IMG/VR virus record: IMGVR_UViG_3300009418_005305
Span: 1-23,800 of that record
Source: a virus
Strand: one strand, 5' to 3'
Length of the DNA stretch: 23,800 nt
Shown in pieces: positions 1,081-23,471 of this stretch. Within the stretch, counting starts at the first letter, position 1; the number at the start of each line of letters is the position of its first letter. The notes beneath the pieces were generated by a model. The model was given only the letters and a program-made list of their open reading frames with translations, did no database searches and was not told the DNA's origin. A program made the position numbers and the translations under genes.

Positions 1081-1117
1081 TTTATAATTCCTCTCTAATT
1101 GTTTCTAAGATATTGAA

Positions 1118-1954: not shown

Positions 1955-1959
1955 ATTAA

Positions 1960-2670: not shown

Positions 2671-2685
2671 GATTTATCTCCTTAC

Positions 2686-3474
2686 TTATATTTTTTGTTC
2701 TACTAAATTGCCTTCTGAATCAATTAATTTCTTTTCTTTTTGGCGATAAGGAAAATCTCTTACCGGCTGTGTTTTATCAAATCCAGTAAACGGCAAGCAA
2801 ATGTCAGTATAATAAGCCAATTGTATTCTTATTGATGGCAAATATTTTTCCATAGCTAACTCGGGGCAATCAAAATTGTTATCAGTACGACTGTCATCCG
2901 CATCAGGTAAATATACAAAAGAGCAGTATTTATTAAATGTTTCAGGTTTTGCAAAGGCAAAAAACCATGGATCTCGGTGGCCGGTATAATATCGAGTGGA
3001 ATAAACAATATTCTCTTTTATTTCAAACTTGGATATATCAATCATCTTTGGATACATCGAGTTATCTGGCCTAGATCTAACAATTGCATCATACTCAAAG
3101 CCATTCTCTGTGGCGTACTTTTGAGCCATCAAAAATCCTTTGCGAATGTTATTCATTTGATTTTGCATTCTTTTTCTAAAATACCCTAGAGTTCCAAAAT
3201 CTTTATCATCGAGATCTTCGTTTTCGTTAACTTCAACGCCTTTCAAATGTAGACCATATATTTTTTGTACATCTTCTATTATTTCTTTTTTGCTTTGTAC
3301 GGTAGTTATTTTATAATTTTGTGTAACGTTTTCTCCAGTTGTATGTAATGTGTTCTTATTGCATGCGTAAACAAAGACATCAGCTTCATTCGGCTCTATT
3401 AAATGTTTGATCTGATTAAGGGCATTAATTTTATAGTCTCTTAACTGCCCTGTGATGATTACAGCGGTTTTCAT
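2686..3474 (-). CDS. Putative glycosyltransferase, TGQLR...RSRPD family
   Basis: 262-residue protein beginning MKTAVIITGQLRDY, with a Rossmann-like first strand and a loop (TGQLR) seen in a poorly described family of phage and bacterial surface-sugar proteins. Around residues 128-138 is YDAIVRSRPDN; the R-x-R-x-D element resembles the metal/nucleotide-binding acidic motif of GT-A glycosyltransferases. No signal peptide or membrane helix is seen. The start overlaps the upstream C-methyltransferase stop (ATGA), with a GAGG about 11 bases upstream. The operon position suggests glycan assembly. A glycosyltransferase role is inference from fold-like motifs and context; a sugar-binding or modifying role is also possible. 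Confidence 0.6.
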   Translation of the reverse strand: MKTAVIITGQLRDYKINALNQIKHLIEPNEADVFVYACNKNTLHTTGENVTQNYKITTVQSKKEIIEDVQKIYGLHLKGVEVNENEDLDDKDFGTLGYFRKRMQNQMNNIRKGFLMAQKYATENGFEYDAIVRSRPDNSMYPKMIDISKFEIKENIVYSTRYYTGHRDPWFFAFAKPETFNKYCSFVYLPDADDSRTDNNFDCPELAMEKYLPSIRIQLAYYTDICLPFTGFDKTQPVRDFPYRQKEKKLIDSEGNLVEQKI

Positions 3475-4667
3475 ATTACTTCGACCTCGGGAAAATATTT
3501 AATAAAAATTACGTCAGATTCTGTGATTTCTCTTGTTTTGTTACCTATCTCGGTAAAAAAGTTCCAAGCTAGCGGTATGATTATAATATTCTGTGGGTCT
3601 TCGTTTTTAAGCGCCTGCGGGTCTTTAATTAAAATATTTCTGCCAGGAGTGTATAAATCCCATTTTAATTCATTGTCATCCACAATATAATCCAAATCAA
3701 TGAGGCCAAAATTTAAAAAAGTATTTCCTTTAGCAGCTGCGCCATAGCCAATAATTTTATAACCTTTGGCTCGAAACTCATCAATTTTTTTATTTAAACT
3801 AACAGTGATAGATCTACATTTTTCAGCATATTTTATATAAGTATTTAATTTATATAAGCCTTTTTCTTTTTCCTTATTAATCTCAGCGATAGCTTTTGAT
3901 TCGGTGGCGGAGCCTTTTTTCAATACAAACACATAGCTACCGCCATGAATGTCTGTTTTAAATACGTCAACTAAAGAAAAATTATTTATATTGGCACAAC
4001 GTTTCATAGAATTAGAATTGAAAAAAGAAAGATGCTCGTGATAAATTGTATCAAATTCATTATTGATAATCATATTGGCTTGAGACGTTTGTATAAACAA
4101 ACAACTATCCTTGTCCATGACATGCGCACAAGATTTTAAAAACTCATGTACATCATCAACATGTGCAAAAACATTTTGTGCTATGATAACATCAAATATT
4201 TCATCCATTTTACTAGCAATATCTTGATTCCAATATTCACAAGTTATTTTATGGTTTTTGCTGCTTAATTTGTATAAATTTTCCGCGGGATCAACTCCAA
4301 AAGTCTCCCATCCTTTATTTTTAAATTTGTCTAATTGTGTTCCGTCATTGCATGCAATATCAAGAACTTTTTTGTTTCCTATTCTATAAGACTCGCATGT
4401 ATCAACAAAATCAACAAAATAATTATGTAATGTTTTACTAGTGCCGCTTACATATAGATAATTTTTAAACATTAAATCTGGGTTTACAACAACGCTTAGC
4501 TGCAGGTGAAAACAGCTTTCACATACATTAAGTTCTAAAGGAAATGTCTCTTGGTCCTCTCCTTTATGGTAATTATTGGCAAGAGGTTGATTATTCAAAT
4601 CTAAAATTTGTTTAAGATTTGGACTATGGCAAATTCTGCAATTTACTTTTTTAGTATAGTTTGGCAA
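3471..4667 (-). CDS. Zinc-type sugar C-methyltransferase (NovU/TylCIII/EvaC-like)
   Basis: Three-part SAM methyltransferase, 398 residues with the start chosen here. An N-terminal zinc-binding domain has Cys10-x2-Cys13 and Cys49-x2-Cys52, with the family hallmark LNNQPLANNY between them. The SAM domain follows (VLDIACNDGT at about 102-111; NVFAHVDD; EFDTIYHEHLSFF, with the paired His and Glu typical of the catalytic site). The C-terminal domain has GYGAAAKGNTFLN at about 300-312. Known relatives C-methylate dTDP-keto-deoxysugars to give branched sugars. I chose a TTG start at 4667 because GAAGGA lies 7 bases before it and it gives a 17-base overlap with the epimerase stop; a TTG at 4706 would add 13 residues inside the upstream gene without a ribosome site. 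Family assignment is strong. Confidence 0.87.
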   Translation of the reverse strand: MPNYTKKVNCRICHSPNLKQILDLNNQPLANNYHKGEDQETFPLELNVCESCFHLQLSVVVNPDLMFKNYLYVSGTSKTLHNYFVDFVDTCESYRIGNKKVLDIACNDGTQLDKFKNKGWETFGVDPAENLYKLSSKNHKITCEYWNQDIASKMDEIFDVIIAQNVFAHVDDVHEFLKSCAHVMDKDSCLFIQTSQANMIINNEFDTIYHEHLSFFNSNSMKRCANINNFSLVDVFKTDIHGGSYVFVLKKGSATESKAIAEINKEKEKGLYKLNTYIKYAEKCRSITVSLNKKIDEFRAKGYKIIGYGAAAKGNTFLNFGLIDLDYIVDDNELKWDLYTPGRNILIKDPQALKNEDPQNIIIIPLAWNFFTEIGNKTREITESDVIFIKYFPEVEVI

Positions 4668-5583
4668 CCGATCTTCCTTCTTTGTTAATTTGTTCAAAAT
4701 TTTCAACTATAGAAATAATTATTGATTCTATAGTCTCTTCAAATTCAAAATCAAATTCATTAATGAACTTTTCTGAGTCTATTAAAAAATTATAAGCTTT
4801 AGTCTGTAGTTTAACATTAGTTATTACTTTTGGCAAGTTATTTGTTATCTCTAATTCAACATTAAGTGCTTCTGCAACTTTTTGAGATATTTCTTTTGCA
4901 GTAGAATTAAAAGAAGCTAAATTATATATACCTTTATTCTTTTGTGTTCCTTCTTCTATTAGCCAAAATATGCTTCTACATAAATCTTGTATTCCTAAAA
5001 TTGGTCTGTATATCTCGGGATTAAAACAAAAAACTTTATCATTCTTTATAGCGTTAAAAACCATGGCATTAATCATTATATCATTTCTTAAATTGGGGGA
5101 CATACCATTTACAGTTCCAAAACGCAAACCAAAGACTTTTTTGTTGCTTAGCGCTGCATATAAATCTATTTCACGCTTTGATAAATCGTAATAATTATTG
5201 GGCTCAAACATAACATAATTTTCTTTAACTATATTTTGTTTTGTATTCCCATAAACAGAAGAGCTACTAGCATAAATAAAAGTCTGTTCTTCATCAATTT
5301 TGTCTAAAAGCTCTACAAAGTTTAATACATTATTTTTCATAGTCGCAACCATGTTATTCTCGCACATTTTCACACTAGAATGTCCAGCCAATAATATGAT
5401 AGCATCATATCGTTGTAATTCTTCTTTAGTAATATCTCGAAAATCTTTTATAATATTATTTGTATTTACATAATTGCCAAACCATTCAAGATCAACAGTA
5501 TTAACATGATATCCTGGTGTTAAAAAATTATACAATCTACTTCCAATATATCCGCAACCACCAATGATTAAAACTTTTTTCAT
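4651..5583 (-). CDS. NAD-dependent epimerase/dehydratase (second copy in cluster)
   Basis: 310-residue extended SDR enzyme. The Rossmann motif GGCGYIG is at 8-14, a Ser-rich catalytic strand SSSSVYG at 106-112, and the active Tyr132-x3-Lys136. Sequence in the substrate half (RPILGIQDL, about 193-201) replaces the more usual R-D-x-x-x-V-x-D. It differs clearly from the epimerase at the left end of the cluster, so it is not a recent duplicate. An N-terminal block close to dTDP-hexose 4-ketoreductases/epimerases makes it a reasonable partner for the adjacent C-methyltransferase, which needs a keto-sugar substrate. The start overlaps the upstream methyltransferase stop (ATGA) with GGAG five bases before. 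Exact reaction undetermined. Confidence 0.88.
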   Translation of the reverse strand: MKKVLIIGGCGYIGSRLYNFLTPGYHVNTVDLEWFGNYVNTNNIIKDFRDITKEELQRYDAIILLAGHSSVKMCENNMVATMKNNVLNFVELLDKIDEEQTFIYASSSSVYGNTKQNIVKENYVMFEPNNYYDLSKREIDLYAALSNKKVFGLRFGTVNGMSPNLRNDIMINAMVFNAIKNDKVFCFNPEIYRPILGIQDLCRSIFWLIEEGTQKNKGIYNLASFNSTAKEISQKVAEALNVELEITNNLPKVITNVKLQTKAYNFLIDSEKFINEFDFEFEETIESIIISIVENFEQINKEGRSVAKLY

Positions 5584-6230
5584 ATTTTCTCCAAAAATAA
5601 AAGAACTGTTTTATCGCTAGCCATAAAATAAGAATATTGTTTAATATCGAGAGTATCTAAAAAAGCGTCTAACTTCTTTTTATTAAAAAAAGTATATATG
5701 CAAGTTGTTTCGCCATTCTTAACCATCCTGTTCAAAACAGTACCTATCGGTGTTTTGTATGATTCAAAATTCGCAAGTTCAGATTCCGAAACATGTTCTT
5801 CAAATGGTTTAAAAAAGCTTATGAGTACCATTTTTTTTGTGACTCTTAACATCTCTTTTATCTCTTTTTTATAATCGAGTTGGTGATTTAACACGGCGAG
5901 ACAAAGTGTGACATCAAAGCTTTCATTTTCAAAAGGAAGATCAGTTGCAGTTGCTAGATGTATATTAATTCCTTTTGCCTTCCCATGCTCAATATATTTT
6001 TCAGTGATTTCAACAGCGGTATATTCAATATCATAATTATCTTGTATAAATCCATAATATTCAGAACAGAGGCCGACGCCAACGTCTAATACACTTTTAT
6101 AATTCCTATTAATAATAAATCTTCTAATTTCTTGTTTGTGCCATGCATTTGGATCACCGCACCACTTTTTAAATGTTTCTATGTCCAAATCCTCATCCCA
6201 ATAAGATAAATATTTTGCTTTATTTTTCAC
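5580..6230 (-). CDS. Class I SAM-dependent methyltransferase (UbiE/Methyltransf_11 type)
   Basis: 216-residue single-domain methyltransferase. Motif I VLDVGVGLCSEY is at about 48-59; the acidic residue after strand 2 (AVEITEKYIEHGKAKG) would bind the SAM ribose; ATDLPFENESFDVTLCLAVLNHQ covers motifs II-III. The substrate is not evident; neighbours suggest a sugar or polysaccharide intermediate. The start codon is GTG at 6230 with GAGG 13 bases upstream, a poor spacing, so expression may rely on coupling to the CgeB-like gene that ends one base before. Its stop overlaps the downstream epimerase start (ATGA). Third of four unrelated methyltransferases in the block. Confidence 0.83.
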   Translation of the reverse strand: MKNKAKYLSYWDEDLDIETFKKWCGDPNAWHKQEIRRFIINRNYKSVLDVGVGLCSEYYGFIQDNYDIEYTAVEITEKYIEHGKAKGINIHLATATDLPFENESFDVTLCLAVLNHQLDYKKEIKEMLRVTKKMVLISFFKPFEEHVSESELANFESYKTPIGTVLNRMVKNGETTCIYTFFNKKKLDAFLDTLDIKQYSYFMASDKTVLLFLEKI

Positions 6231-6231
6231 G

Positions 6232-7170
6232 CTAGCTTAGTTCCTCAATGTGTTTAATTAATTGTTGTGCTCTGTTCTTCCAAGTATGATTCTCAACAAA
6301 TTCATTATAAGCATTTTCAATTATTTTATTTCTTTCTTCTTCATTTTTTAAGTAATAGTCCATTTTTTTTTCAAAATCTGATAAATTGTGATCGAACTCG
6401 ACACAATTTTCTCCATCTTTAAAAATATGCTTATATTGTTTTGGAATTTTTTGACAAAATAACAATGTTCCTGATGCGGCAATCTCATAGTATCTAGGGG
6501 TTATGTCGCCAAATGCTGCTTGAGTTGCGATCCAAATTTTAGAGGTATTTATTTTTTTTGCATACTCATCATAGCTAGGTATTCTAGCCAGCTGCTTGTC
6601 GCTAGAACTCCAAAATGTATTAATGTCATTTCTATTTTTTAAAATATTACCTATCTTTGTCCTAATATTCTTAGTAAGAAAAGCTCCATTAGGATAATGT
6701 TTATTCTCATGAAGAGCACCAGAAAAACCAACATCAATCGTCTTTTTTAATTTTCTATCAAAAAAGATTCCTGGATCAAAACCATATGGGAGCAGCCTTG
6801 ATTTAACTCCGGTTGTTCTTTCATATTCATCAAATTCTGGGTTCGGCGTTAATAAAAGATCTATCTTATTAGTCTGACAAAAAATTAATTTTTCTTCTAA
6901 ATCATTTTGTGGTTTAAAAAGTATGCATATAGAAGGAATATTAATTCCATCTATTTTGCTAAAATATTTGTTATTAAACCAACCTAGGCCAAAAACCACA
7001 AAGTTAGCTTGAAAATTATTTCGCTCACAAATTTTTTGAATATTATCAGGTATATCTCTTATTAAACCAACTTGATGTTTTTTTATAAGTTGTTTATAAA
7101 TGCCATCATAATAACGATAATTAGAGGATATAGCAGTTTCGACTACTGGATCAAAATATAATATTTTCAT
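6232..7170 (-). CDS. CgeB-like GT-B glycosyltransferase
   Basis: 312-residue protein with GT-B architecture. A degenerate N-terminal half (MKILYFDPV...YRYYDGIYKQL) is followed by a C-terminal donor domain resembling the CgeB/YkvP group: DVGFSGALHENKHYPNG near 146-162, then TPRYYEIAASGTLLFCQKIP near 225-244 (the E-x-x-x-x-G donor-binding segment), DGENCVEFD, and a final HTWKNRAQQL helix. These enzymes transfer sugars to spore coat, capsule or phage/host glycans; donor unknown. It overlaps the upstream FkbM gene by 20 bases in another frame, with AAGGA 10 bases before the ATG. No membrane segment seen. Family confidence good. Confidence 0.82.
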   Translation of the reverse strand: MKILYFDPVVETAISSNYRYYDGIYKQLIKKHQVGLIRDIPDNIQKICERNNFQANFVVFGLGWFNNKYFSKIDGINIPSICILFKPQNDLEEKLIFCQTNKIDLLLTPNPEFDEYERTTGVKSRLLPYGFDPGIFFDRKLKKTIDVGFSGALHENKHYPNGAFLTKNIRTKIGNILKNRNDINTFWSSSDKQLARIPSYDEYAKKINTSKIWIATQAAFGDITPRYYEIAASGTLLFCQKIPKQYKHIFKDGENCVEFDHNLSDFEKKMDYYLKNEEERNKIIENAYNEFVENHTWKNRAQQLIKHIEELS

Positions 7171-7969
7171 TTTTTAAAATATCCTTTTTTACTGCAAATA
7201 AATCATTTTCACGAAAAAGAGCGTAACCATGATTAGAAAATATTTCACAAGCTGCAATCTCGTCTTCAACTGTGTATAAGCCTCCCTCTTGTTTGTATTC
7301 TACACGACCATGCGTTGGATGTGGTTTATATCTTGGGTGACTAAGCGGATATCTAACAGCAGCATATATTTCAGATATATACGCCAATGGTTCTACTTTA
7401 TTGAAATCAAAACTTTTTAATAATTGATAATCGTGACCCTCACAATCAGTTTGTACCACTAGGTTATGCTCAGATGTTATTTTATGTCTTTTAAATAACT
7501 CATCCCAAGTAGTTGTTTTAACATCAATAGTGGTGGAGAATTTTTTCAGTTCTGGGCATCCTAAATTATTTTTATCTTCATAAAATGACCCTAAACCTCT
7601 TGCCCAGTGTTCCTTAATCAACCATGGAGTATGTTCTAATCGAAAAGAAACTTCTCCGTCAATAAAACATTGTTCTGGTATATAATGCATCGTTTTTTCG
7701 CCGCTTTCTACATCAAGCGCAAGTTGTTCAAAAATTAAATTTTTATTATTTTTATAATTACTTTTTAAAACTTCAAAATAACAAGGTATGGGCTCAAGCA
7801 TAATGGCTTTCGGATCATATTTATTAACAAATTCATACATTCTATCACACATCCAGCCATCATTTGCACCAATTTGTATTAAAATAAATTTTTCCGGATT
7901 CCTATGATAAATATATTCAACTATTTCTTTGCCTTTTTGTGTTGAAATGTTTGTTATGTGTGGTTTCAT
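7151..7969 (-). CDS. FkbM-family methyltransferase
   Basis: 272-residue SAM methyltransferase of the FkbM type. The N-terminal motif FILIQIGANDGWMCDRM (about 28-44), a second-strand acidic residue in MLEPIPCYFEVLKSNY (about 57-72) and the C-terminal hallmark VVQTDCEGHDYQLLKSFDF (about 173-191; family K/T-x-D-x-E-G-x-D) are all present. FkbM enzymes O-methylate hydroxyls on polyketides, lipids and sugars; in a glycosyltransferase operon the sugar hydroxyl is the natural guess. AAGGA lies 8 bases before the ATG and only three bases separate it from the upstream gene's stop. Family strong, substrate inferred. Confidence 0.86.
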   Translation of the reverse strand: MKPHITNISTQKGKEIVEYIYHRNPEKFILIQIGANDGWMCDRMYEFVNKYDPKAIMLEPIPCYFEVLKSNYKNNKNLIFEQLALDVESGEKTMHYIPEQCFIDGEVSFRLEHTPWLIKEHWARGLGSFYEDKNNLGCPELKKFSTTIDVKTTTWDELFKRHKITSEHNLVVQTDCEGHDYQLLKSFDFNKVEPLAYISEIYAAVRYPLSHPRYKPHPTHGRVEYKQEGGLYTVEDEIAACEIFSNHGYALFRENDLFAVKKDILKNENIIF

Positions 7970-7972
7970 ATT

Positions 7973-8863
7973 TTATTTCCTTAAGTCTCTTACGCCCGGA
8001 GCATAGTCTTGTAAATGTCGAAACATCCCTTGATTGTGATAACCATCTTCAACTAGCTTAAAATTATATATACTTTCAGAATATATGTGAGCAAATAACG
8101 AAATTATTTCATTATCACCCCAGCGGTATTTATATATACCACCCGAATCATTTACAGCGGTAATCCATTTTTTCCACAATGAGCTTTTAAACATTTCTGT
8201 TTTGATTACATAAGAATCGCACCAATCAAGAAAGTGAAAATTCCACTCAGCATTTGAATCTGTTAATAGGTCCTGCAATTGCTTTGATTTTGGTGTTATT
8301 TCATTACCAATTAAAAACTTTTTGGTAAAATCCCAAAGCCCAATTCTGCAATCTAGATGACCCTGATGGGGGGCGCCATTTTTTAAACGTTGGCCTACGA
8401 TATATGCTCCCATTATTTCTGGCTGTTCCGACATGACCTCAAATGGATCATATGGCATTTCTTGTGTGTATCCCGACTCATCATCATGGGTCATGATATA
8501 ATCATATTTTTCTAATTCTGTATTTTCATGGCCATACATGTTGCTCGTAAAATGACACATATGTAAATAACCTTTTCTAGTGATAGGAAAACTGGTTCTT
8601 GCATACCAAAGATCGCGACGATTATAAAATAAATTTTCTTCTTTTAAAAAGTCTGGCGTCTTGTAAAGTATTTGTCTAAAATGTACATTTTGACTAGTGT
8701 TTTCTCTTATGTTCTCTCTAAATTCTTCTGAATCGTAAATGTCGTCAAAATAATAGACATATACTGGATAATCGTATTTATAATTGTAATTGTCCCAGAG
8801 CGACTTAATGCATAAACCAATACATTGTTTTCTAGACGATATAATGTTGATACAAGCTTTCAT
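7973..8863 (-). CDS. GT15-like (KRE2/MNT1-type) mannosyltransferase homologue
   Basis: 296 residues from the ATG at 8863. Several blocks resemble the fungal alpha-1,2-mannosyltransferase family GT15: FPITRKGYLHMCHFTSNMYG (about 91-110), EKYDYIMTHDDESGY (about 116-130, with an acidic metal site) and GGIYKYRWGDNEIISLFAH (about 243-261, cf. YRWGD in KRE2/MNT1). In fungi the enzyme adds mannose from GDP-mannose with Mn2+. Here it has no membrane anchor, so it would work in the cytoplasm. I chose 8863 because that ATG overlaps the upstream stop (ATGA) and has AAGGA 7 bases before it; an upstream ATG at 8899 lies within the previous gene. Family match by eye only. Confidence 0.72.
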   Translation of the reverse strand: MKACINIISSRKQCIGLCIKSLWDNYNYKYDYPVYVYYFDDIYDSEEFRENIRENTSQNVHFRQILYKTPDFLKEENLFYNRRDLWYARTSFPITRKGYLHMCHFTSNMYGHENTELEKYDYIMTHDDESGYTQEMPYDPFEVMSEQPEIMGAYIVGQRLKNGAPHQGHLDCRIGLWDFTKKFLIGNEITPKSKQLQDLLTDSNAEWNFHFLDWCDSYVIKTEMFKSSLWKKWITAVNDSGGIYKYRWGDNEIISLFAHIYSESIYNFKLVEDGYHNQGMFRHLQDYAPGVRDLRK

Positions 8864-9813
8864 TTCGTTTTCCTTTTCCGAGAACAACTGCGAGAACAAC
8901 TGCGATTTCCTGGGGGCGGTCGAATTAAACTTAGTGCAACAATTCCATCCGACAACGAGGCTAAATCTCCAGGTTCTCCTATTTTAACATATTTAATAAA
9001 AGCCTTTAACTCCTTTTCAAGTGCATTCCCAGCTTCAACAAACAAAAGACTTTTATTAAACTTTTTATCACCACAGCATGTATATTTAAGGACCTGTTGA
9101 TTGATCAAATTAATTGTATAATATGAGTTTTCCGTGAGAAGCTTAATTGTGCGCTCTTTAAATGGGATTAGCCAACTTGTAAAAATCATACCTGTGGATC
9201 CACCAGAAAGATTTAAGAAAAAACTAGCTGTATCTTCTTGGGCGGTCTTAGTAGAAGTGCAAGAAGACACAATATCAACAATATTTTGATTTGTGATAAA
9301 TTTTATTAGATCGATATCATGGATCGCTAAATCTAATTTTACACCAACATCATTAATTCGCTTAGGATATGGACTGACTCTCGTTATGTTGCAATTTAAT
9401 ATTTTTTGACCTTTTAAATCCTCAATCAAACATTGCACTGCTGGATTAAATCTCTCAATATGCCCAACTGCAACTTTACAATTGCTCTCTTCGGCAATTT
9501 GCACTAATTCCGTAGCCTCTACGATATTATTAGCTACTGGTTTCTCTATCAATGTGTGAATTCCATTTTGTAATAATTTTTTTGCGATTTTTGTATGCGT
9601 AGAAGTTGGAGTGGCAATTATTGCACAGTCAACTTTTTGTCCTTCTATCAACTCTTCTATATTTTTATAAACGCGATGAAGGGCCCTATCAAAACCTAGC
9701 GAATCGACCAAACCAACTATGTTTATGTCTTCAATGGATTGAAGAACTTTATAATGCTTTTGACCCATCGATCCTAAGCCAACTATTGCCACGTTTATAG
9801 AACTATCTTTCAT
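8860..9813 (-). CDS. Gfo/Idh/MocA-family sugar dehydrogenase (WbpB/WlbA-like)
   Basis: 317-residue NAD(P)-dependent oxidoreductase. Nucleotide-binding motif GLGSMGQKH is at about 12-20; the family EKP motif is in HTLIEKPVANN (about 86-96); the substrate pocket includes VGHIERFNPAV (about 116-126) and DLAIHDIDL (about 160-168), which carries the catalytic-site Asp/His. Closest functional idea is the 3-dehydrogenation of UDP-N-acetylhexosamine-type sugars, as in WbpB/WlbA, which fits with the DegT aminotransferase directly upstream. The last 20 residues are odd: Arg/Ser/Cys/Lys-rich and partly coded by a 12-base tandem repeat, unlike the usual end of the family, suggesting a replaced C-terminus. 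The start overlaps the aminotransferase by 11 bases with weak Shine-Dalgarno. Confidence 0.85.
   Translation of the reverse strand: MKDSSINVAIVGLGSMGQKHYKVLQSIEDINIVGLVDSLGFDRALHRVYKNIEELIEGQKVDCAIIATPTSTHTKIAKKLLQNGIHTLIEKPVANNIVEATELVQIAEESNCKVAVGHIERFNPAVQCLIEDLKGQKILNCNITRVSPYPKRINDVGVKLDLAIHDIDLIKFITNQNIVDIVSSCTSTKTAQEDTASFFLNLSGGSTGMIFTSWLIPFKERTIKLLTENSYYTINLINQQVLKYTCCGDKKFNKSLLFVEAGNALEKELKAFIKYVKIGEPGDLASLSDGIVALSLIRPPPGNRSCSRSCSRKRKTK
8881..8904 (-). repeat. 12-base tandem duplication at the 3' end of the dehydrogenase gene
   Basis: The plus-strand unit agaacaactgcg occurs twice back to back, preceded and followed by partial matches. On the coding strand it adds SCSR-SCSR to the protein. 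Period 12 keeps the frame. It lies beside a short GC-rich run (plus strand around 8911-8920) unlike its surroundings, so it may mark a repair or recombination junction. Confidence 0.8.
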
Positions 9814-10612
9814 AATTCAATCTAATTTCTAGCGCTTTCTCTTCTGCAATTGGGCACTCTCCATTGATACCCATTTTTTTATATACTGGTTGGTCATAGA
9901 CAACTTTTGGATAATGCCCTTGTTCGGGGCCTCTTATACCTAATTCTGCTTTTATGCCTGTCATGTGGATTTTCATCTGCTCAAGGGCCATTAAACAAAG
10001 TGGCTCGGCCAATCTAAAATTAAAACCAATATATTCATGGTTATATTTGCCCATCTGTCCTTGGTCACAAATAGATCTGATTTTGTTATTATCTAATTTG
10101 GATCCTTTTGGGATACAAATCATCCCTCCTTCAAAGGTTGATATGTTTTTTGTTTTATAAAAAGAAAAAGTGCCGGCATCAGACATCATCCCAGCATTTT
10201 TTCCATTTGAGTCTATTGCTCCGAAAGCTTGAGCCGCATCTTCAATTACTACTAAATTATACTCTTTGGCCAATTGTTTAATTTTGTCCATTTTGCAGAC
10301 TCTGCCATAAAGATGCACAGGAATTATCGCTTTTGTTCTAGATGTTATGGCCTTTTCAATTTTTTTTGAGTCAATTAATAAGGTATCCGGGTCTATGTCA
10401 ACAAACACTGGTTTAGCGCCAGCAATGAGAATGGCATTTGAAGTCGCAATAAAAGTAAAAGGCGTTGTTATAACTTCATCGCCTTCTTTTAGGCTTAAAG
10501 ACCATAAAGCAGCAATTAAAGCGCTCGTGCCGCTATTGACAGCTATACAATCTTTAAGTTGAAATTTTTCCTTAACATATTCTTCAAATATATTTCTAAC
10601 TATTGCTGGCAA
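9803..10612 (-). CDS. Shortened DegT/DnrJ/EryC1/StrS-type aminotransferase
   Basis: PLP-dependent sugar aminotransferase homologue of 269 residues; family members are usually 360-400. Present: the PLP phosphate loop SGTSALIAAL (27-36), EDAAQAFGA with Asp125 and Gln128, and the Schiff-base lysine in SFYKTKNIST (Lys155). The large domain then runs to GFNFRLAEP (197-204). The expected small domain is mostly missing: after EQMKIHM the sequence jumps to text resembling the family's C-terminal loop (GHYPKVVYDQPVYKKMG...ECPIAEE), then stops early. About 30 N-terminal residues are missing as well. The start is TTG at 10612 with GAGG before it and a 17-base overlap with the upstream gene. It may be a deletion derivative that is inactive, or a compact form. 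Partnered with the dehydrogenase downstream. Confidence 0.75.
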   Translation of the reverse strand: MPAIVRNIFEEYVKEKFQLKDCIAVNSGTSALIAALWSLSLKEGDEVITTPFTFIATSNAILIAGAKPVFVDIDPDTLLIDSKKIEKAITSRTKAIIPVHLYGRVCKMDKIKQLAKEYNLVVIEDAAQAFGAIDSNGKNAGMMSDAGTFSFYKTKNISTFEGGMICIPKGSKLDNNKIRSICDQGQMGKYNHEYIGFNFRLAEPLCLMALEQMKIHMTGIKAELGIRGPEQGHYPKVVYDQPVYKKMGINGECPIAEEKALEIRLNYER

Positions 10613-11522
10613 TTGATCCCTCTACTGCGTGTGGTTGCATGAAATCTAAATATTTTTTCGAAACGTTATTCATATTATAATCTATATCCCATAAATTTTT
10701 AATTTTTCTATCAAAAACTATTGGCGGAGGTTCATATAGTTTAACTGGCTCAAAGTCCCATTTATTTTCTATAACAATAATCGCTTTAGGACCTGCAATT
10801 TCTTTTGTTCCACCCGTAGAGGAACATATGATCTGACACCCACTTGCTCGGGCATCAACAACAACATTCGGACAATGATCTAACCAAGCTAAGTGTATAA
10901 AGTATTTAGATTTCTTATATAAAGAGATTAACTGAAGAGTGCTTATGTTCCCAACATAAAAAATTCTATCGTTCTTAATGATGTCTTCTTTCTTGTCGCC
11001 GGCAATTACTAAGCACTCCTTTTCAGAGGAGTGCTCTAAAAAGTACTTTATGTTCTCGGATAGCCTTTTGTGTGGCCTCCACGAAGAGGCACAGCACCAA
11101 ACATTTTCATATTTATCTAATTTTAGGTTTTCCAATGGTGGAACTTTATCAATGTATTCAACATCAGCGCCATTATGTATAACAATGGAATTCTTATGTT
11201 CTCCAAAATATTTTGTTATAAGATCTTCATTGAAATTCGATTGGAAGATAACACCATCTGCATTATCATAAGTTCTTTTTATGTTTTTATTCTGTACTTC
11301 GTAATTTTGTGCTGTATTAAAATATATACCATCCAGTCTTTGAAACATAGGTGCGTCATCAGTTTGAAATAACTGAACTCTATGTGATTCTATAAAGCAC
11401 AATCTTGCGTCTGGAGCTTTACCTAAGTCAAAAGTGGCATCCATATATTTAATCAATTTTGAAGCAAAATGATTTGGGCCTGATGTGCTTTGTAAGTTTA
11501 CATTTTCTAAGTGTATGTTCAT
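10596..11522 (-). CDS. GT4-like glycosyltransferase
   Basis: 308-residue GT-B glycosyltransferase, shorter than the usual 350-420. The N-terminal acceptor part contains SGPNHFASKLI (about 14-24) and YFNTAQNYE. The linker has IVIHNGADVEYID, a frequent GT4 boundary motif. The donor domain has CCASSWRPHKRL (about 143-154) and HLAWLDHCPNVVVDARASG (about 213-231), where Asp replaces the usual E-x7-E first Glu, and then SSTGGTKEI. The final residues AVEGSIASNS do not look like a GT4 end and instead resemble the N-terminal ...EGxIASxGP... segment of DegT aminotransferases, so this end may be a fusion product. Start ATGA-overlaps the preceding gene's stop. No signal peptide. Confidence 0.85.
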   Translation of the reverse strand: MNIHLENVNLQSTSGPNHFASKLIKYMDATFDLGKAPDARLCFIESHRVQLFQTDDAPMFQRLDGIYFNTAQNYEVQNKNIKRTYDNADGVIFQSNFNEDLITKYFGEHKNSIVIHNGADVEYIDKVPPLENLKLDKYENVWCCASSWRPHKRLSENIKYFLEHSSEKECLVIAGDKKEDIIKNDRIFYVGNISTLQLISLYKKSKYFIHLAWLDHCPNVVVDARASGCQIICSSTGGTKEIAGPKAIIVIENKWDFEPVKLYEPPPIVFDRKIKNLWDIDYNMNNVSKKYLDFMQPHAVEGSIASNS

Positions 11523-13129
11523 ATTCTCGTGTAGGGTTGCTTGCTTCTAATTTTCTGAGCAATTGCTGCTTGTTCTTGCGTTTTAATTTTATCCACATTT
11601 AAAGGATTTTCTTTATTATATACATGTAGAATTTCTGGAATAAATTTAGAACGCTCAGAAGCCATCTCTAAAAGCGGGAGCATAATCGCTTGATCATAAG
11701 TCATCTTATAATATTCGCCATCCTCGTCTTTTAAGTCTTCAAAATTTATATGCTTCCATAATTTGTACTTAAATGTCCTTAAATGAGAAGCTCTCCATTG
11801 ATCTTGTCTAAAAGAGTTTGCTTCTATTACTTCTTTTGGGTATTCAGAAGGTTCTGGACCTTTTCTGCCAGTTGGGTTGAAAACATAGTTGCCATATGTC
11901 ATCAAGCATTCATCGTAGTTCTCGCAAAGCTTATTTAAAGTCAATGAAGAAGCAAACCAGTCATCGCCATCAAGCAGGATTAATACGTCTTCGTCATCAC
12001 AATTAGACTTTTCAATTGCATTAACAATATTAGCAAGTGCATATTTCTTTTCTTCGTTCTCTATTAAACAAAATCTAGAATCATCTGCAATTTCTTTTTT
12101 TACAATATTTACTGAGTCGTCAGTTGACATATCATCCACCAGTAAACATTCAAAATTCTTATGCTTTTGACTCTGGATACTGTTAATACATTTTTTAATC
12201 CATCGCCCACAATTGAAAAATGGTACTATAATTTTAAATTTAAGATCACTAGTCGTGTTAAGTTCTGGAAGATTTAAACATTGGGCTGCGGCAGTTTCCA
12301 TTTCTCTCCAAAATATATTGGTTCTTTGTTTTAAATAATCTAGTGCCGACTCTTTATCAGAAAACCATTCTTCATCTTTGTGTTGCACATTATCATTTAA
12401 AATCAACTCACAATCAAGCAGCTTTGCTTCAATTGTCATTCTTGGGCAAGTATCACCAGCCTTTGGAAAGAAAATTATTCCTTTCGCTTTTGCAAGCTTT
12501 TTCAAAAGCTCTTTGTGATCTATTCCCCAAATTAATTCATAATTCAAACTATTCTTCTCTGCATATTCGACAGCTTCCGCAACTCCTTTAATCCATGAAG
12601 GAGAATTTAAGATTAACCATTTATCTTCTTTCTTTGTTGTATCTAGTGATTGAATAAAATCTAATGTTTCTTCAGAAAATACAGAGCTTAAAACTTTATT
12701 ATTATTATTTTTCAAAAATGGAAAGAGTTTTTGGTAACATTTCATTTGGTTCTTTGACATCCACCAAGTTGTTTTTGCGTTATGTAGAAATGCTGAAACG
12801 ATCTTCCCTCTTCTTGATTGGTGGCAATCACAGCTACCTTCTGCTGCAATGTGTTTTCGAGAAGACCTAAAATGACAATATTTATAATCATATTCTAAAA
12901 CGCTATAATTTAAATTTTTTGCCGCGTACAATAAACAATCTTCTGGCACCGAAGCGAAGTTGCCAAAAATCCAAAAAGAATCTTTATATTCTTCCATTAA
13001 TGGCTTTGTTAACATTTGCGATAATGTTTTATTACAAGGGAATAAGCTGCCATCAATAATTGCTTCTGTGGTTAATTCCCCGCCGCCTTTATATTGCTCA
13101 GCGAACATGTCGGAAATAAAGAATATCAT
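11519..13129 (-). CDS. Two-domain glycosyltransferase: GT-B half fused to GT2
   Basis: 536 residues. Residues about 1-290 look like a GT-B protein: a Gly-rich N-terminus (QYKGGGELTTEA), WLILNSPSWIKGVAEAVEYA (about 171-190) as the start of a donor domain, and FFPKAGDTCPRMTIEAKLLDCELILNDN (about 220-247) at the E-x-x-x-x-x-x-E donor site. Residues about 297-500 are a GT-A family 2 domain: KIIVPFFNCGRWIKKCINSI, then LLVDDMSTDDSV (about 330-341) and LLDGDDWF (385-392) with the DxD-type metal site. It could add two sugars in sequence. The end (KIRSKQPYTRI) is basic. The start abuts the stop of the upstream GT4 gene, GGA about 7 bases before the ATG. GT2 half is certain; GT-B half probable. Confidence 0.85.
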   Translation of the reverse strand: MIFFISDMFAEQYKGGGELTTEAIIDGSLFPCNKTLSQMLTKPLMEEYKDSFWIFGNFASVPEDCLLYAAKNLNYSVLEYDYKYCHFRSSRKHIAAEGSCDCHQSRRGKIVSAFLHNAKTTWWMSKNQMKCYQKLFPFLKNNNNKVLSSVFSEETLDFIQSLDTTKKEDKWLILNSPSWIKGVAEAVEYAEKNSLNYELIWGIDHKELLKKLAKAKGIIFFPKAGDTCPRMTIEAKLLDCELILNDNVQHKDEEWFSDKESALDYLKQRTNIFWREMETAAAQCLNLPELNTTSDLKFKIIVPFFNCGRWIKKCINSIQSQKHKNFECLLVDDMSTDDSVNIVKKEIADDSRFCLIENEEKKYALANIVNAIEKSNCDDEDVLILLDGDDWFASSLTLNKLCENYDECLMTYGNYVFNPTGRKGPEPSEYPKEVIEANSFRQDQWRASHLRTFKYKLWKHINFEDLKDEDGEYYKMTYDQAIMLPLLEMASERSKFIPEILHVYNKENPLNVDKIKTQEQAAIAQKIRSKQPYTRI

Positions 13130-14401
13130 CTATTTTCCAGCTGAGATTTGGTCAAATAATTGGTCGATTTCTTCATCTGATGTTATATCTAATACCGGTG
13201 CTATGGCATTATAAAACGCTTCGTACTGAGCCGCTTCTTTAAAATTTTTGCAGATCCATGTTTTTAACTTTTTAGCTTGTGAATTAAATCTGCTATGATC
13301 TTTATAGACCTCACGAAGCTTCATTTTATAAGAACCTTGTTTCGGGTAACACCACATTGATTCTTTAATTAAAACGCCCTCCCAAACAACTTCTTTTGGG
13401 ATTGGTCCAATATCATAATCAACTTTTGCAAAGTGAGCTTTATTTTTAATTTTACCTTTTTTGTTTTCAGTTGGCTTATAAAGGAAATCTAAATGGCCAC
13501 TCCAGTCTGGAGCTATTACTGGCAGTCCATTATAAGCTGCTTCAAAAATTGGTAATCCAAACCCTTCGCCGTGAGTTAAAGTTACCAAAGCTTTAATTTT
13601 AGGATGTGAATAAAGCCCTGTCATTTCTTCGTCTGATATGTCGCCATGCAAAAGATAAATTTTGCATTGTCGCTGCGGGTATCGTTTTAATATTTCTCGT
13701 ACATGTTTTTCTGTATGCTGTTTATCAATGATTGAATTATTTTTAATAAATATTTTTAATACTAAGCCAACTGGTTGGTCAATAAATTCTTCTACGAACC
13801 AAGCAACAGTATTATCAATATTTTTTCTTGGCCCAATTTGGGCTACAGCTAGAAAATTAAAGTCTGTTTCAAAATCTAAATTAATATTTGCTGGCTTGTG
13901 TTTTCGAACTGGGTATTGTACAACCTCAATTGGGGTTCTACATTTAAAATCTTTAATGACTTCACCAGTATTGTTGTTTTGGGCTTCATAGCTAGTATTT
14001 TCATAAATTGATTTTGAATGATTTGAAACAGTTATAATTTTATCCATCAAGAAAGATTTTTCAACCCATTGCGGTGCTACCTTTGTTGTTTCAATCCCAG
14101 CAGTTACTCCAATATTAATAGGTGCCATCTTTTCCCATTCATTTGGGATTGTGACTTGCATGGAGGCGTCGAATTGGCCATCTTGTTGTCTGTAAATTGC
14201 TGTTTTTGCAATAATCATATCCATCCAGCGCCTTTCTTCGTCGTCTTGAAAGATCCACCCTGTTTGGCCCCATGGAACATTATCTAGATATACATCAAAC
14301 TTATCTTCATTTTGTTTAAGCATTCTTAATGTAAACCTTGCATGCTCGCCATATCCGCTGCGGCTTAGGGCCGGCCCTCTTACAATAATTCTCTTTTTCA
14401 T
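13130..14401 (-). CDS. GT4-family glycosyltransferase
   Basis: 423-residue GT-B enzyme of normal length. The N-terminus RGPALSRSGYGEHARFTLRML (residues 8-28) is a sugar-acceptor-side Gly-rich loop. DKIITVSNHSKSIYE (about 120-134) and VAQIGPRKNIDNTVAWF (about 186-202) mark the interdomain region, and the donor site HGEGFGLPIFEAAYNGLPVI is at 277-296 with both Glu of the E-x7-E motif. Retaining transfer from a nucleotide sugar is expected; donor not identifiable. Overlaps the previous gene by ATGA with GAGGT close by, and ends right at the start of the fused glycosyltransferase. With its upstream neighbour it forms a pair of similar architecture (both ~420 residues). Confidence 0.9.
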   Translation of the reverse strand: MKKRIIVRGPALSRSGYGEHARFTLRMLKQNEDKFDVYLDNVPWGQTGWIFQDDEERRWMDMIIAKTAIYRQQDGQFDASMQVTIPNEWEKMAPINIGVTAGIETTKVAPQWVEKSFLMDKIITVSNHSKSIYENTSYEAQNNNTGEVIKDFKCRTPIEVVQYPVRKHKPANINLDFETDFNFLAVAQIGPRKNIDNTVAWFVEEFIDQPVGLVLKIFIKNNSIIDKQHTEKHVREILKRYPQRQCKIYLLHGDISDEEMTGLYSHPKIKALVTLTHGEGFGLPIFEAAYNGLPVIAPDWSGHLDFLYKPTENKKGKIKNKAHFAKVDYDIGPIPKEVVWEGVLIKESMWCYPKQGSYKMKLREVYKDHSRFNSQAKKLKTWICKNFKEAAQYEAFYNAIAPVLDITSDEEIDQLFDQISAGK

Positions 14402-15660
14402 TTTACCTCGCTAAATGTCCAGCTTTTGTAGTTTTTTCTAGTTTCCCACGACCCAAGTTCATTATAAATATTTTGAAAAATTTCATCCCATCTTTTTGTA
14501 ATTTTTTCATAGTTGTAATTTTTCATAATGTGTTCTCGGCCCATTTTGCCCATTTCCTCTCGCTCTTCCTGTTTCATAGTATACATTTTTAATAATGCAT
14601 TGATGAAATCATCTTTTGACACTCGATCTTCATAAATCCATGGGATCTCTTGTGAGCCTATGATCGCTCTTGCAACTGGTTTTATACCAATACCAAACCA
14701 ATTTTCTCCATCTGTAACTTGTTCCTGCAAACCTCCTGTCATATTTACAATAATTGGTGTTTCGCACGCTAAAGATTCAAATGTCGCCAGGCCAAAACCT
14801 TCCGCATCTGCAATATTGATTGTGCAATCAGCCATGTTGTATATAAGCGCCAATATGTCTGGAGAATATTTTTGTGTAGAGAAACTAACTTCACCATTTG
14901 TTAAGTCTAAAAAGCTTAGAATCTCTTCGAGGTCCTGTCCATGTACATCTTTAACATCTGTATGCATTATTAAACATGCTTTGCCATGGCCAATCATATC
15001 TAAAAATTCTTTAAACCAAAAAATTACAGTTCCACTTTGCTTTCTTTTTGCATTTCTATTATTCCAGAAAAAAATCATTTTGTTTGTGTCATCGCTAAAA
15101 GAAGATTTTTGTTTAAAGTCTTCAATCTCTTGTGCTGTTTTTTTCTGGAATATATCTGTATCAACAATGTGTGGTATATATTCACTTCGGACGCTTGGTG
15201 CTACGGTTTTAACAATATCATCTGTTACTTTAGAAATAGTAGCAATAAAATCGTTTGACTCATAAAAAGATTTATTGTACATCGGATATGGTATGTTATC
15301 CCAAACATGATAATAAATCATCGGCATTAGCGGCCTAACTTCATTTTCTATCATCCAGAGCCAACCCCAAAATCGTGGATCTGTCATGAACCATAACATA
15401 TCAGGTCGGTCGTTTCTAATCACAGAACGTATCATTTCTTGGGTGCCATATCCATCTACTGGCAATATTACCCAATCATCTCCATATTCTGGAAGCTTTA
15501 CAGGTGTGTATTTTTCGTGTTTCATCGCACCGCCTAAACTAATAAATTGATATTTACCAGTTTTAAGCATTGCCTCGATGATATATTTTGTTTGTGTGCC
15601 GACACCAGAAGGCGATAATGGATGGTCGCCTAGTGTCAAAATCTTTATTTTTTTATCCAC
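14398..15660 (-). CDS. GT4-family glycosyltransferase (first gene of glycan block)
   Basis: 420-residue GT-B glycosyltransferase. Residues 10-26 (LGDHPLSPSGVGTQTKY) form the N-terminal Gly-rich loop; IATISKVTDDIVK (about 139-151) and a linker IPHIVDTDIF follow; then a donor domain with FFWNNRNAKRKQSGTVIFWF (about 197-216) and DAEGFGLATFESLACETPII at 285-304 containing the E-x7-E pair. The start is GTG at 15660, supported by GAGG 5-6 bases before; there is no competing ATG nearby. It lies 9 bases after the nuclease gene stop, so the nuclease and glycan genes are likely on one transcript. Function: sugar transfer, donor unknown. Confidence 0.9.
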   Translation of the reverse strand: MDKKIKILTLGDHPLSPSGVGTQTKYIIEAMLKTGKYQFISLGGAMKHEKYTPVKLPEYGDDWVILPVDGYGTQEMIRSVIRNDRPDMLWFMTDPRFWGWLWMIENEVRPLMPMIYYHVWDNIPYPMYNKSFYESNDFIATISKVTDDIVKTVAPSVRSEYIPHIVDTDIFQKKTAQEIEDFKQKSSFSDDTNKMIFFWNNRNAKRKQSGTVIFWFKEFLDMIGHGKACLIMHTDVKDVHGQDLEEILSFLDLTNGEVSFSTQKYSPDILALIYNMADCTINIADAEGFGLATFESLACETPIIVNMTGGLQEQVTDGENWFGIGIKPVARAIIGSQEIPWIYEDRVSKDDFINALLKMYTMKQEEREEMGKMGREHIMKNYNYEKITKRWDEIFQNIYNELGSWETRKNYKSWTFSEVK

Positions 15661-16467: not shown

Positions 16468-16881
16468 TTACTTCTTTGTTTTAGCTGCTGGTTTAGCTGC
16501 TGGTTTAGCTGCTGGTTTAGCTGCTGGTTTGGCTGCTGGCTTAGCTGTTGGCTTAGCTGTTGGCTTAGCTGTTGGCCTAACTGCTGGTTTGGCTGCTGGT
16601 TTGGCTGCTGGCTTGGCTGTTGGTTTAGCTTCTGGCTTAGCTTCTGGCTGCGGTAGCTCAAAAACCCAAGATCCCTTTAATTGACTTTCGCCTCTAAAGT
16701 TAAAAAGTTTAGAATGCTTAACGCATTGCTCTTCTTTCACATCAATGCCTAAATCTTTTAAAGCTGCAACTGCCTCTGCAACTCGGTAAACCCGCTCTTC
16801 ATATGGACTAGCGGCCCTTTTTACAGTTAACGTTACCTGTAGCTTTGTTTTATTTTTATTATATTTTGTTGTTACTTTCAT
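16468..16881 (-). CDS. Protein with small N-terminal domain and AKP-repeat (histone H1-like) tail
   Basis: 137 residues in two parts. Residues 1-78 form a compact mixed domain (MKVTTKYNKNKTKLQVTLTV..., with a helix RVYRVAEAVAALKDLG and a strand GSWVFEL). Residues about 80-134 are a nearly pure four-residue repeat (AKPA/AKPT), ending KTKK, basic and disordered like the tails of histone H1 or bacterial H1-like proteins. A likely role is binding DNA or RNA or another acidic partner; this is inference from composition. AAGGAG lies 8 bases before the ATG, and the gene abuts the upstream metallopeptidase stop. Repeat number probably varies between relatives. Confidence 0.75.
   Translation of the reverse strand: MKVTTKYNKNKTKLQVTLTVKRAASPYEERVYRVAEAVAALKDLGIDVKEEQCVKHSKLFNFRGESQLKGSWVFELPQPEAKPEAKPTAKPAAKPAAKPAVRPTAKPTAKPTAKPAAKPAAKPAAKPAAKPAAKTKK
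16481..16650 (-). repeat. 12-base period repeat encoding the AKP tail
   Basis: Plus-strand units of gctgctggttta and close variants (gctgttggctta, gctgctggcttg, cttctggcttag) follow one another with period 12 for about 170 bases. Copies differ mainly at third codon positions, with some Ala/Thr or Ala/Glu exchanges. Slippage-prone and coding; no spacers, so not a CRISPR array. Confidence 0.9.
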
Positions 16882-19377: not shown

Positions 19378-20166
19378 ATGTTTAAAAAACTATCAATTAT
19401 TTCTTTATTGCTGCTTACGATCTTTAGCTTAAGCTGCAACATTGGTAGTAAACAAGTTAAAATAAATGATATCCTTCCACGTAAATCATTTTTATATGTA
19501 AAAAAAGTATTAACAATTTACAAGTGTGTTGACGATATATGTTCTGCTACGGACTATCAAGCATATGCGTCCGCTTATGTTGTAGAAACATACACTGAAG
19601 GAGCTTTGGCAGTTACAGCAGCACACGTTTGTACTGCTGATGAAAATAATCCACCACCAGATGATATTAAAATAACTATAAAATATAAAGTACTTCGATT
19701 AGATGGAGAAGCTTTCGATGCTAATGTGTTAAATTATAATAAAAAAATTGATGCATGTATGCTATTTGTAAAAGATCTAACTGGAGTGGAAAAAGTTGAG
19801 TTGGCCAAAAAAGCTCCTAAGCCTGGGGATAAGGTTTACAACCTGGCTGCTCCGAGAGGAATTTTTAGACCAGGGATGGTGCCAATCCTAGAAGGAAGAT
19901 TCAATGGAGACTCTGATGGCGTTGCGTGGTATTCTCTATTGGCAGCACCAGGAAGTTCAGGATCAATGATTATAAATGAAGAGGGAGATTTGATAGGGAT
20001 GGTACATTCTACTTATATACGTTTCCCGGTTATAACTTTATCAGTACAATATGATGACTTGAATACGTTTATTACTTCTAGTGTAGATAAATATAATTTT
20101 ATGAAGTTTCTAAAAACTGCTTATGAAATAAAAAAATATATTGACATGCTATCTATTCCATATTAA
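19378..20166 (+). CDS. Trypsin-like serine protease with lipoprotein signal
   Basis: The only plus-strand gene; 262 residues. Residues 1-19 are a signal peptide (MFKK, hydrophobic core, then SLSC) with the lipobox cysteine at Cys20, so a lipidated, membrane-anchored protein is expected in a host with Lgt/Lsp. The protease domain shows His83 (VTAAHVC), Asp125 (KKIDACM) and Ser194 in APGSSGSMI, the chymotrypsin-fold catalytic triad in correct order; Cys50, Cys55, Cys85 and Cys127 might form disulphides. Likely role: cleaving or protecting surface proteins, perhaps in superinfection exclusion or lysis. Its start has AAGGG 9-13 bases upstream; another ATG four bases earlier is out of frame. It overlaps a leftward gene by 18 bases, tail to tail. 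Confidence 0.85.
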   Translation: MFKKLSIISLLLLTIFSLSCNIGSKQVKINDILPRKSFLYVKKVLTIYKCVDDICSATDYQAYASAYVVETYTEGALAVTAAHVCTADENNPPPDDIKITIKYKVLRLDGEAFDANVLNYNKKIDACMLFVKDLTGVEKVELAKKAPKPGDKVYNLAAPRGIFRPGMVPILEGRFNGDSDGVAWYSLLAAPGSSGSMIINEEGDLIGMVHSTYIRFPVITLSVQYDDLNTFITSSVDKYNFMKFLKTAYEIKKYIDMLSIPY

Positions 20167-22437: not shown

Positions 22438-22464
22438 AATATATTTATCTCCTTATTTAATCCA

Positions 22465-22844
22465 TGGAGGCGCCGAGAATCGAACTCGGGTCCAAAATGG
22501 TTTATATATCTCGTCATTCACAAGAATAGGCACATTCACCACCGAAGCACCACCACCTGACAAGTGTCAGGGAATCCATTCACCAACTTAAGGTGTTGGC
22601 TACCAAAATTATATAGTCTCCTACATAATTAATATCCGCTTGCGCGGATAACCAGCTTTTCTGAAAACTGGAAACGATTAGCATTTGTTAATAAAGCCGC
22701 TAATGGCTCCCGATTAAGCTGCTATAGCGTAATCAAATTCAACGTTATCGTTGGCATTTATAATATTCGAACATTTTTACTGTGTTGCTCACACAGTCTT
22801 GCACAAAATATAATCACTTATTTTGTCGAAACCTTTTCGCCCCC
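22465..22844 (-). ncRNA. ssrA: tmRNA (transfer-messenger RNA)
   Basis: One-piece tmRNA of 380 bases. The 5' end reads GGGGGCG-AAAAGGTTTCGAC, the conserved tmRNA start. It pairs with CGCCTCC at the 3' end to give a seven-pair acceptor stem with one G-U. The T arm is present (CCGAG, loop TTCGATT, CTCGG). CAAAAT near the 5' end can pair with ATTTTG near the 3' end as helix P2. The discriminator is A at 22465; the genome then reads TGG, so CCA is not encoded and must be added. Inner bases contain a resume codon and tag frame. Its role is to rescue stalled ribosomes by trans-translation with SmpB and tag the stalled protein. In a phage this would need host SmpB. Assignment near certain. Confidence 0.95.
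22714..22755 (-). other. tmRNA tag reading frame (ANDNVEFDYAIAA)
   Basis: Within the tmRNA, resume codon GCC at 22753-22755 opens a frame of 13 codons then TAA (22714-22716). The peptide is ANDNVEFDYAIAA; the end AIAA fits the hydrophobic, Ala-Ala-terminated degrons read by ClpXP-type proteases, and AND at the start matches proteobacterial tags. An Ala resume codon is the usual first residue. The 5' side is helix P5/H5-like sequence, as in other one-piece tmRNAs. Confidence 0.9.
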
Positions 22845-23079
22845 ACATTTTAAAAGAACAAGTACTATAAAGGGTGTTGGTTCTTCACACCAACAACGCT
22901 AGGCTCCTTTCAACTGGAAAACGTTACATAACGTTTTTTATATTCCCCTTCAAGAGAGTCATTGAAGGTTGGTTTTTAATCCATAGATTCTAGTTTAGCA
23001 CCCTTATAGTCTAGAAATTTCACTTCCTTGTTTAATTATCATATATAAAACGAATCTCTTTTGATTCGAGTTATATATA
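22845..23079 (-). other. Hairpin-rich leader between the promoter and the tmRNA
   Basis: About 235 bases with no convincing gene. On the minus strand I see: a stem of 6 with loop 6 at 23051-23068 (CGAATC...GATTCG, then TTTT); a stem of 7 with loop 8 at 22947-22968 (CCTTCAA...TTGAAGG); a stem of 9 with loop 2 at 22918-22937 (AAAACGTTA...TAACGTTTT); a stem of 6 with loop 9 at 22875-22895 (TGTTGG...CCAACA); and a loose TTCTAG...CTAGAA pair between. They could be processing, attenuation or termination elements; the plus-strand version of the third is followed by six T and could terminate rightward transcripts. Confidence 0.6.
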
Positions 23080-23108
23080 ACTATATTACATTATACTTAA
23101 TCTGTCAA
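23080..23108 (-). promoter_or_regulatory. sigma70-type promoter TTGACA-N17-TATAGT for tmRNA unit
   Basis: On the minus strand TTGACA (23103-23108) overlaps the last codons of the Fis-type gene; 17 bases later stands TATAGT (23080-23085), one mismatch in the -10. Predicted start near 23073, upstream of the hairpin-rich leader and tmRNA. No terminator is seen between tmRNA and the FtsZ-like gene, so the promoter may serve both. Confidence 0.7.
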
Positions 23109-23471
23109 GTTATTTTTATCTTTTTCTTCAAAAAAACTTTCTGTTTTGTATTTTTTTACCAATGCCCTAAAATTACTTGTATTTATTCCTAAAAATCTTG
23201 CGGCTTCTTGTTTTGTTCTACAAGCTGAAAGAGCATATTTTAATACTGCATCTTGAACTATCTCTTTCATTGAATACCATATTGGTAATCCATATGCTTT
23301 TCCGCCAAATACTTTTGAAGCTAATTCTAATTTAAGACCAATTATTTCTTCTAAACTAAGCGTATTAAGCATTATTTCGAAAGCTTCTGTTATCTTTTCT
23401 TCTTCTCTTAACTTTTTTATTAAGCTGTAATTTTCATTACTTCCGTGATATTTTCTTTTTTTCCAAACCAT
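23097..23471 (-). CDS. Fis/NtrC-C-terminal-type DNA-binding protein
   Basis: 124 residues. A basic N-terminus (MVWKKRKYHGSN) and two helices (SLIKKLREEEKITEAFEIML; LSLEEIIGLKLELASKVFGG) precede a Fis-like helix-turn-helix at about 76-108 (VLKYALSACRTKQEAARFLGINTSNFRALVKKY), whose T-x-x-E/A-A-x-x-L-G-I-x-x-x-x-x-x-x-x-x-K pattern matches Fis and the C-terminus of NtrC activators. No AAA+ or receiver domain. Likely a small phage-borne DNA-binding regulator. Its stop lies on the -35 box of the tmRNA promoter, so it could self-limit that promoter (inference). No good Shine-Dalgarno; the ATG start is preceded by AAAAAGAAA. Confidence 0.75.
   Translation of the reverse strand: MVWKKRKYHGSNENYSLIKKLREEEKITEAFEIMLNTLSLEEIIGLKLELASKVFGGKAYGLPIWYSMKEIVQDAVLKYALSACRTKQEAARFLGINTSNFRALVKKYKTESFFEEKDKNNLTD

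Follow-up and report, generated by a model that had tools for sequence, protein, structure and literature searches.

We consider it likely that the 23.8-kb window, the whole stretch of DNA analyzed here and an entire IMG/VR record, carries a functional ssrA gene that is conserved within a phage lineage, and that this tmRNA is expressed from a sigma-70 promoter through a structured leader RNA, processed by the host, and employed with host SmpB in ribosome rescue and in tagging with an AIAA-ended degron. The preliminary description of this DNA had proposed a complete one-piece tmRNA, naming no strand. ARAGORN called the same gene and placed it on the minus strand (Table 1), typing it and its close relatives as one-piece genes with no circularly permuted (two-piece) structure, and reported neither a tRNA gene nor a second tmRNA gene elsewhere in the window. 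The comparison with the Rfam tmRNA model that had been suggested as a check yielded a full-length match to RF00023, spanning positions 22462-22844, with 105 bits (E = 2e-40) against a curated cut-off of 47 bits. With this score, and with compensatory stem changes among at least 45 distinct viral homologues of the tmRNA, chance can be excluded.

Table 1 Features of the window and related sites at other loci
Feature	Position	Strand	Basis or remark
Tubulin/FtsZ-superfamily GTPase (TubZ/FtsZ fold), 385 aa	21280..22437	(-)	27 nt after tmRNA
TGG directly 3' of the discriminator, at the site of a would-be CCA	22462..22464	(-)	sequence
One-piece tmRNA (ssrA)	22465..22844	(-)	ARAGORN and Rfam RF00023
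Tag reading frame, ANDNVEFDYAIAA then stop; resume codon GCC	22714..22755	(-)	ARAGORN, gene positions 90-131
Structured RNA element, tmRNA leader, 153 nt (P1, P0, P2, P4)	22865..23017	(-)	
Sigma-70-type promoter TTGACA-17-TATAGT (11/12)	23080..23108	(-)	-35 box overlaps the Fis-like ORF at its 3' end
Fis-like helix-turn-helix protein, 124 aa, upstream partner of tmRNA	23097..23471	(-)	homologues, HTH_8 search, structure model
Copies of the leader element, CTGG subtype	L338:4350; L342:100; L343:6767; L344:2126-2165(-); L339:468-517(-); L349:814-923		
Loci with Fis-like/tmRNA overlap	L006, L008, L012, L013, L014, L026, L237, L269, L289, L296, L312, L318		

The gene displays several defining parts of a tmRNA. 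Its acceptor stem reads GGGGGCG/CGCCTCC, the T loop GTTCGA is present in the tRNA-like domain, and the third pair is the alanine identity pair G3-U70 (G22842-U22468), which is the pair read by alanyl-tRNA synthetase. A resume codon, a short tag frame with an AxAA-type end, and a stop codon were all found, the tag ending in IAA and not in LAA. PK1 was located 5' of the tag, and several helices of the PK2-PK4 part, located between PK1 and the tRNA-like domain, have a low posterior in the Rfam alignment. The discriminator A is followed by TGG, as had been seen from the outset, and since CCA is not encoded the 3' tail must come post-transcriptionally. That part of the earlier proposal stands, and the further statement that a host enzyme supplies the tail becomes a presumption. 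The feature itself is not distinctive: 20 of the 45 tmRNAs among the matches listed do not encode CCA either, so it is ordinary in this set and implies enzymatic CCA addition, presumably by the host.

The relatives were obtained by scanning viral contigs of IMG/VR with an ANDN-type tag pattern, which, together with earlier loci, gave the set of at least 45 distinct one-piece tmRNAs, with lengths of 305-422 nt. Among the matches listed, G3-U70 is present in 45/45, and the same set shows covariation at acceptor pair 5 (GC/AT/TA) and pair 6 (CG/TA). In the relatives where the search located PK1, its stem 2 covaries as well (TGAGT/ACTCA, TAAGT/ACTTA, TGAAT/ATTCA, GAGTG/CACTC). Ala10, Ala12, and Ala13 of the tag are invariant in 42 relatives among the matches listed while their codons differ (GCT/GCC/GCA/GCG), indicating selection on the peptide. 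Position 11 of these 42 listed tags is occupied by Leu (39), Ile (2), or Met (1), which makes the IAA end of the window a rare variant. One-piece viral genes among the matches listed carry ANDNV[EASTDG]-type tags, except two of ANNN type, and the other ANDN tags listed from the viral set come mostly from permuted genes. Taken together, the retention of G3-U70 and of the AxAA end and the covariation in the acceptor stem and PK1 argue that the window tmRNA is probably functional with host SmpB. No SmpB was detected in the 36 phage records searched, which are fragments and not full genomes (positive control, 10/14 genomes), suggesting that host SmpB is probably used. A separate observation concerns the tmRNA at L030:7521-7926, in which the usual resume codon opens a 36-aa frame (ANDVSLATPWFSLKDRTGYVPVQLLDEASEAVAYVN followed by a stop codon) without an AxAA end. 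ARAGORN gives another frame for this gene, and the 36-aa tag occurs on one contig only and could be an assembly chimera.

The preliminary description had missed two neighbors of the tmRNA, a structured RNA upstream of it and a Fis-like partner gene. In the window, the RNA element lies between the promoter and the tmRNA; it is shared with L010, L011, L007, L002, L248, L272, L212, L244, and L345, and a diverged core of it was found in L078. Its P2 is a CTTCAA hairpin, the loop of which, GACTC, pairs with a downstream GAGTC in a pseudoknot that has one mismatch (A-C) in the window. Compensatory changes were observed at 5/6 pairs of the P4 hairpin. P1 is a long-range closing helix: the 3' tail pairs with its own 5' segment at a mean of -12.4 kcal/mol versus -7.0 kcal/mol with the segments of others, with 0/20,000 permutations as good, and the self versus non-self test over 15 copies gave 0/50,000. 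By eye, the P0 hairpin crosses P1. An initial pairing of the leader, AAAGG/CCTTT, held in 71% of cells with no compensatory change and gave way to the long-range P1, and the possibility that the leader encodes a peptide was rejected because no reading frame is kept. No Rfam family was matched at cut-off by the leader element; the only matches were to sRNAs at chance level (E 1-9), with none for L248. A covariance model of the element, built without the pseudoknot, found copies away from the tmRNA, and a pattern scan added more. The neighbors of these six distinct copies are mostly small KOW-like (MKVGDLV-type) and unknown genes, and the copies keep the pseudoknot through new compensatory pairs, GATTC/GAATC and GGTTC/GAACC, that are outside the model. 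Both subtypes of the element occur in G073. As a candidate new RNA class, the leader element shows strong covariation and recurs in several copies within the lineage.

Whether this candidate acts on the tmRNA is a matter of weighing. Two copies, those in L338 and L349, have new promoters behind them, and in L344 P1 is succeeded by a long T run; instead of a riboswitch, the element may thus be a 3'-end element or a free RNA. In line with these two features, and with the copies that lie elsewhere between small KOW-like genes, the element might be an independent small RNA, a terminator-like element, or a processing element that is merely located 5' of the tmRNA and does not regulate it; tmRNA loci of the same family without the element also exist. 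By contrast, at ten loci the element is flanked by the Fis-like gene on one side and by the tmRNA 5' end on the other, in most cases behind a strong promoter. On balance, we rate an independent element as a serious contender, with somewhat less than an even chance.

The second neighbor, the Fis-like gene, was found upstream of 30 of the 45 tmRNAs among the matches listed, even where the tubulin-like gene sits elsewhere. The structure model of its product is all-helical, Fis chains make up its 21 best PDB matches (at E 0.3-1), and Pfam HTH_8 scores 17.3 bits, below its cut-off of 22. In the window and in most loci where the two genes do not overlap, the Fis-like gene carries a consensus promoter, TTGACA-17-TATAxT, at its 3' end. 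There is no overlap in the window itself. In 12 loci, however, the Fis-like frame reaches into the tmRNA, with its stop codon 32-38 nt from the tmRNA start, and in all of them the coordinates place tmRNA base 1 at codon base 1 of the Fis-like frame. A strong promoter is present in 13/17 non-overlapping versus 0/12 overlapping loci (p = 6e-5, relatedness of loci ignored), a count that omits a perfect match at -296 in L006, inside the Fis-like coding region.

A nonstop message is a typical tmRNA substrate. Because the tmRNA starts at a codon boundary, a cut by RNase P would leave a nonstop Fis-like mRNA in the sister phages. It is established that RNase P makes the 5' ends of tmRNAs and that AlaRS charges them (PMC3985003). 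An ArfA-like loop is thus possible in the sister phages, though not in the window, whereby tmRNA maturation would leave the Fis-like mRNA nonstop. A broader scheme, which we regard as doubtful, would make the whole locus a self-regulating unit: the pseudoknotted leader would control tmRNA output and, in sister phages without the promoter and leader, each RNase P maturation would render the Fis-like mRNA nonstop, to be followed by tmRNA tagging. If true, such a unit would link a DNA-binding regulator with the capacity for ribosome rescue, and the overlap of the Fis-like gene with the tmRNA would be a new way of tying gene control to trans-translation.

Downstream of the tmRNA, no terminator-like site was found in the 27-nt gap that separates it from the tubulin-like gene, suggesting that the two are probably co-transcribed. 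A Foldseek search with the model of the tubulin-like protein returned TubZ/FtsZ (E 4e-20 to TubZ), the GGGTGS G-box is invariant in 22 relatives, and the Pfam Tubulin score of 27.5 bits is just below the cut-off of 33. Relatives were detected at 68 loci among 2.9 million viral contigs scanned, in many cases with the tmRNA directly in front, and many of these loci share their contig with a T4-type capsid gene. In L008, another ORF lies between the tmRNA (6209-6514) and the tubulin-like gene, and in G014, G015, G020, and G023 the two stand apart. These arrangements indicate that the tmRNA is less tightly paired with the tubulin-like gene than with the Fis-like gene.

The working model starts from what the sequence displays, namely the gene with its identity elements, tag, promoter, and leader structure and the lack of a recognizable phage SmpB in the records, and borrows processing, charging, rescue, tagging, phage benefit, and regulation by the leader from known tmRNA biology. 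The ssrA gene would be transcribed from a host-type sigma-70 promoter that overlaps the Fis-like gene at its end; the transcript would include the structured leader RNA and probably extend into the tubulin-like gene. Host RNase P would generate the 5' end of the tmRNA, host enzymes would trim its 3' end and add CCA, and alanyl-tRNA synthetase would charge it via G3-U70. Together with host SmpB, the tmRNA would then rescue ribosomes stalled during infection, the stalled peptides being marked by a ClpXP-type degron with an AIAA end. The idea put forward earlier that the gene acts late in infection finds no support, the predicted promoter in front of the tmRNA being sigma-70-like.

Alternatively, the tmRNA could be mainly a competitor or decoy that soaks up host SmpB or takes the place of the host tmRNA, with control of tagging outweighing extra rescue. 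As the search of the records showed no SmpB gene, the phage tmRNA must draw on the host pool, and phage DS6A provides a precedent in the form of a relic of the tmRNA tRNA-like domain, inhibition of tmRNA by such a molecule having been described (PMC4131195). A pure decoy, however, has no need of the full tag frame and the AxAA end, both of which are kept under synonymous change, and we hold this explanation to be quite unlikely compared with ribosome rescue and tagging.

The tmRNA lineage is one of uncultured, T4-like phages, and the phage context assumed in the preliminary description is borne out by the viral record and by related contigs with T4-type gp23. The tmRNA, the tubulin-like gene, and the T4-type gp23 capsid gene occur together in G015 (166 kb), G020, and G023 (203 kb each), and one 166-kb contig unites the tmRNA, the Fis-like gene, the tubulin-like gene, and a T4-type capsid gene. 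The gp23 gene was found in 15/36 records of a first set and 8/32 of a second. The tmRNA region, the tubulin-like protein, and the Fis-like protein have no match among 50,697 deposited phage records, and PhoH, as well as the gp23 of the relative G044, is less than 60% identical to every one of these. From the IMG numbers, we take the source contigs to be marine. The exact tag with Ile (-AIAA) is present in 0/84,980 bacterial and archaeal species genomes. Host assignment through the tag did not succeed, as the pattern ANDNVxxx[YF]AxAA was found in 0/398 sampled Pseudomonadota and a looser pattern in bacteria led to alphaproteobacterial tags among the matches listed. Although PhoH and glycosyltransferases occur in bacteria too and the window contains no structural gene, a host chromosome or a host tmRNA contaminating a viral assembly, the two origins that the preliminary description had flagged, is extremely improbable, given the viral records, the same gene order on many viral contigs, gp23 on related contigs, a tag not found in the bacterial genomes searched, and the permuted structure of all 104 bacterial ANDN-tag genes typed by ARAGORN among the matches listed.

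Other genes of the window include, at 16468-16881 (-), a small protein that ends in a long KPAAKPTAKPAAKP repeat and adjoins a PD-(D/E)XK exonuclease and PhoH, and, at 19378-20166 (+), a trypsin-like serine protease beginning in the manner of a lipoprotein (LSLSCN), which is among the few opposite-strand genes. A long series of ORFs of sugar epimerase, methyltransferase, and glycosyltransferase-like type at 190-15660 (-), judged from reading the translations only, is of the kind expected for glycan or virion-decoration genes.

Phage tmRNAs have usually been recorded and then left as curiosities. They are already known from Melnitz, Bxz1, phage G, and huge phages; new are the Fis-like neighbor, its overlap with the tmRNA in sister phages, and the undescribed pseudoknotted leader RNA. 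In the present case, an entire uncultured T4-like lineage has retained a tmRNA together with a constant, regulator-like partner, and some of its members add a structured leader, which makes it a directly testable question what a phage gains from its own ribosome rescue.

In agreement with the initial remark that such genes are uncommon, ssrA is present in 402/18,146 phage genomes, and one-piece forms are rarely marine (PMC9004378). Phage-encoded ssrA genes were reported in Bxz1 and phage G (PMC4131195). Bxz1-type mycobacteriophages, Wildcat, and Bacillus phage G have a phage tmRNA in common with the window, although the phages are unrelated and the likeness is drawn from the literature, not base by base. 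Huge phages, which encode both tmRNA and SmpB (PMC7162821), share the presence of a tmRNA in large phages as part of a takeover of translation; they differ by their SmpB, as none was found in the 36 records (fragments) of the present lineage. A regulatory parallel is offered by E. coli ArfA, the nonstop mRNA of which is kept down by tmRNA (PMC3985003), and the Fis-like mRNA of the sister phages is likewise predicted to be nonstop. ArfA, however, is a rescue factor and its message is cut by RNase III, whereas in the sister phages the loop would involve a Fis-like protein and a cut by RNase P. The closest functional parallel is the methylophage Melnitz with its relatives (PMC9004378), which share with the window lineage a T4-like phage, a complete ssrA, and an associated structured regulatory RNA. 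The Melnitz tmRNA is two-piece (permuted) and SAR11-like and comes with a glnA-type glutamine riboswitch, whereas that of the window is one-piece and comes with an element without an Rfam family. Finally, in Melnitz a coactivator gene lies downstream, whereas in the window lineage a Fis-like gene lies upstream.
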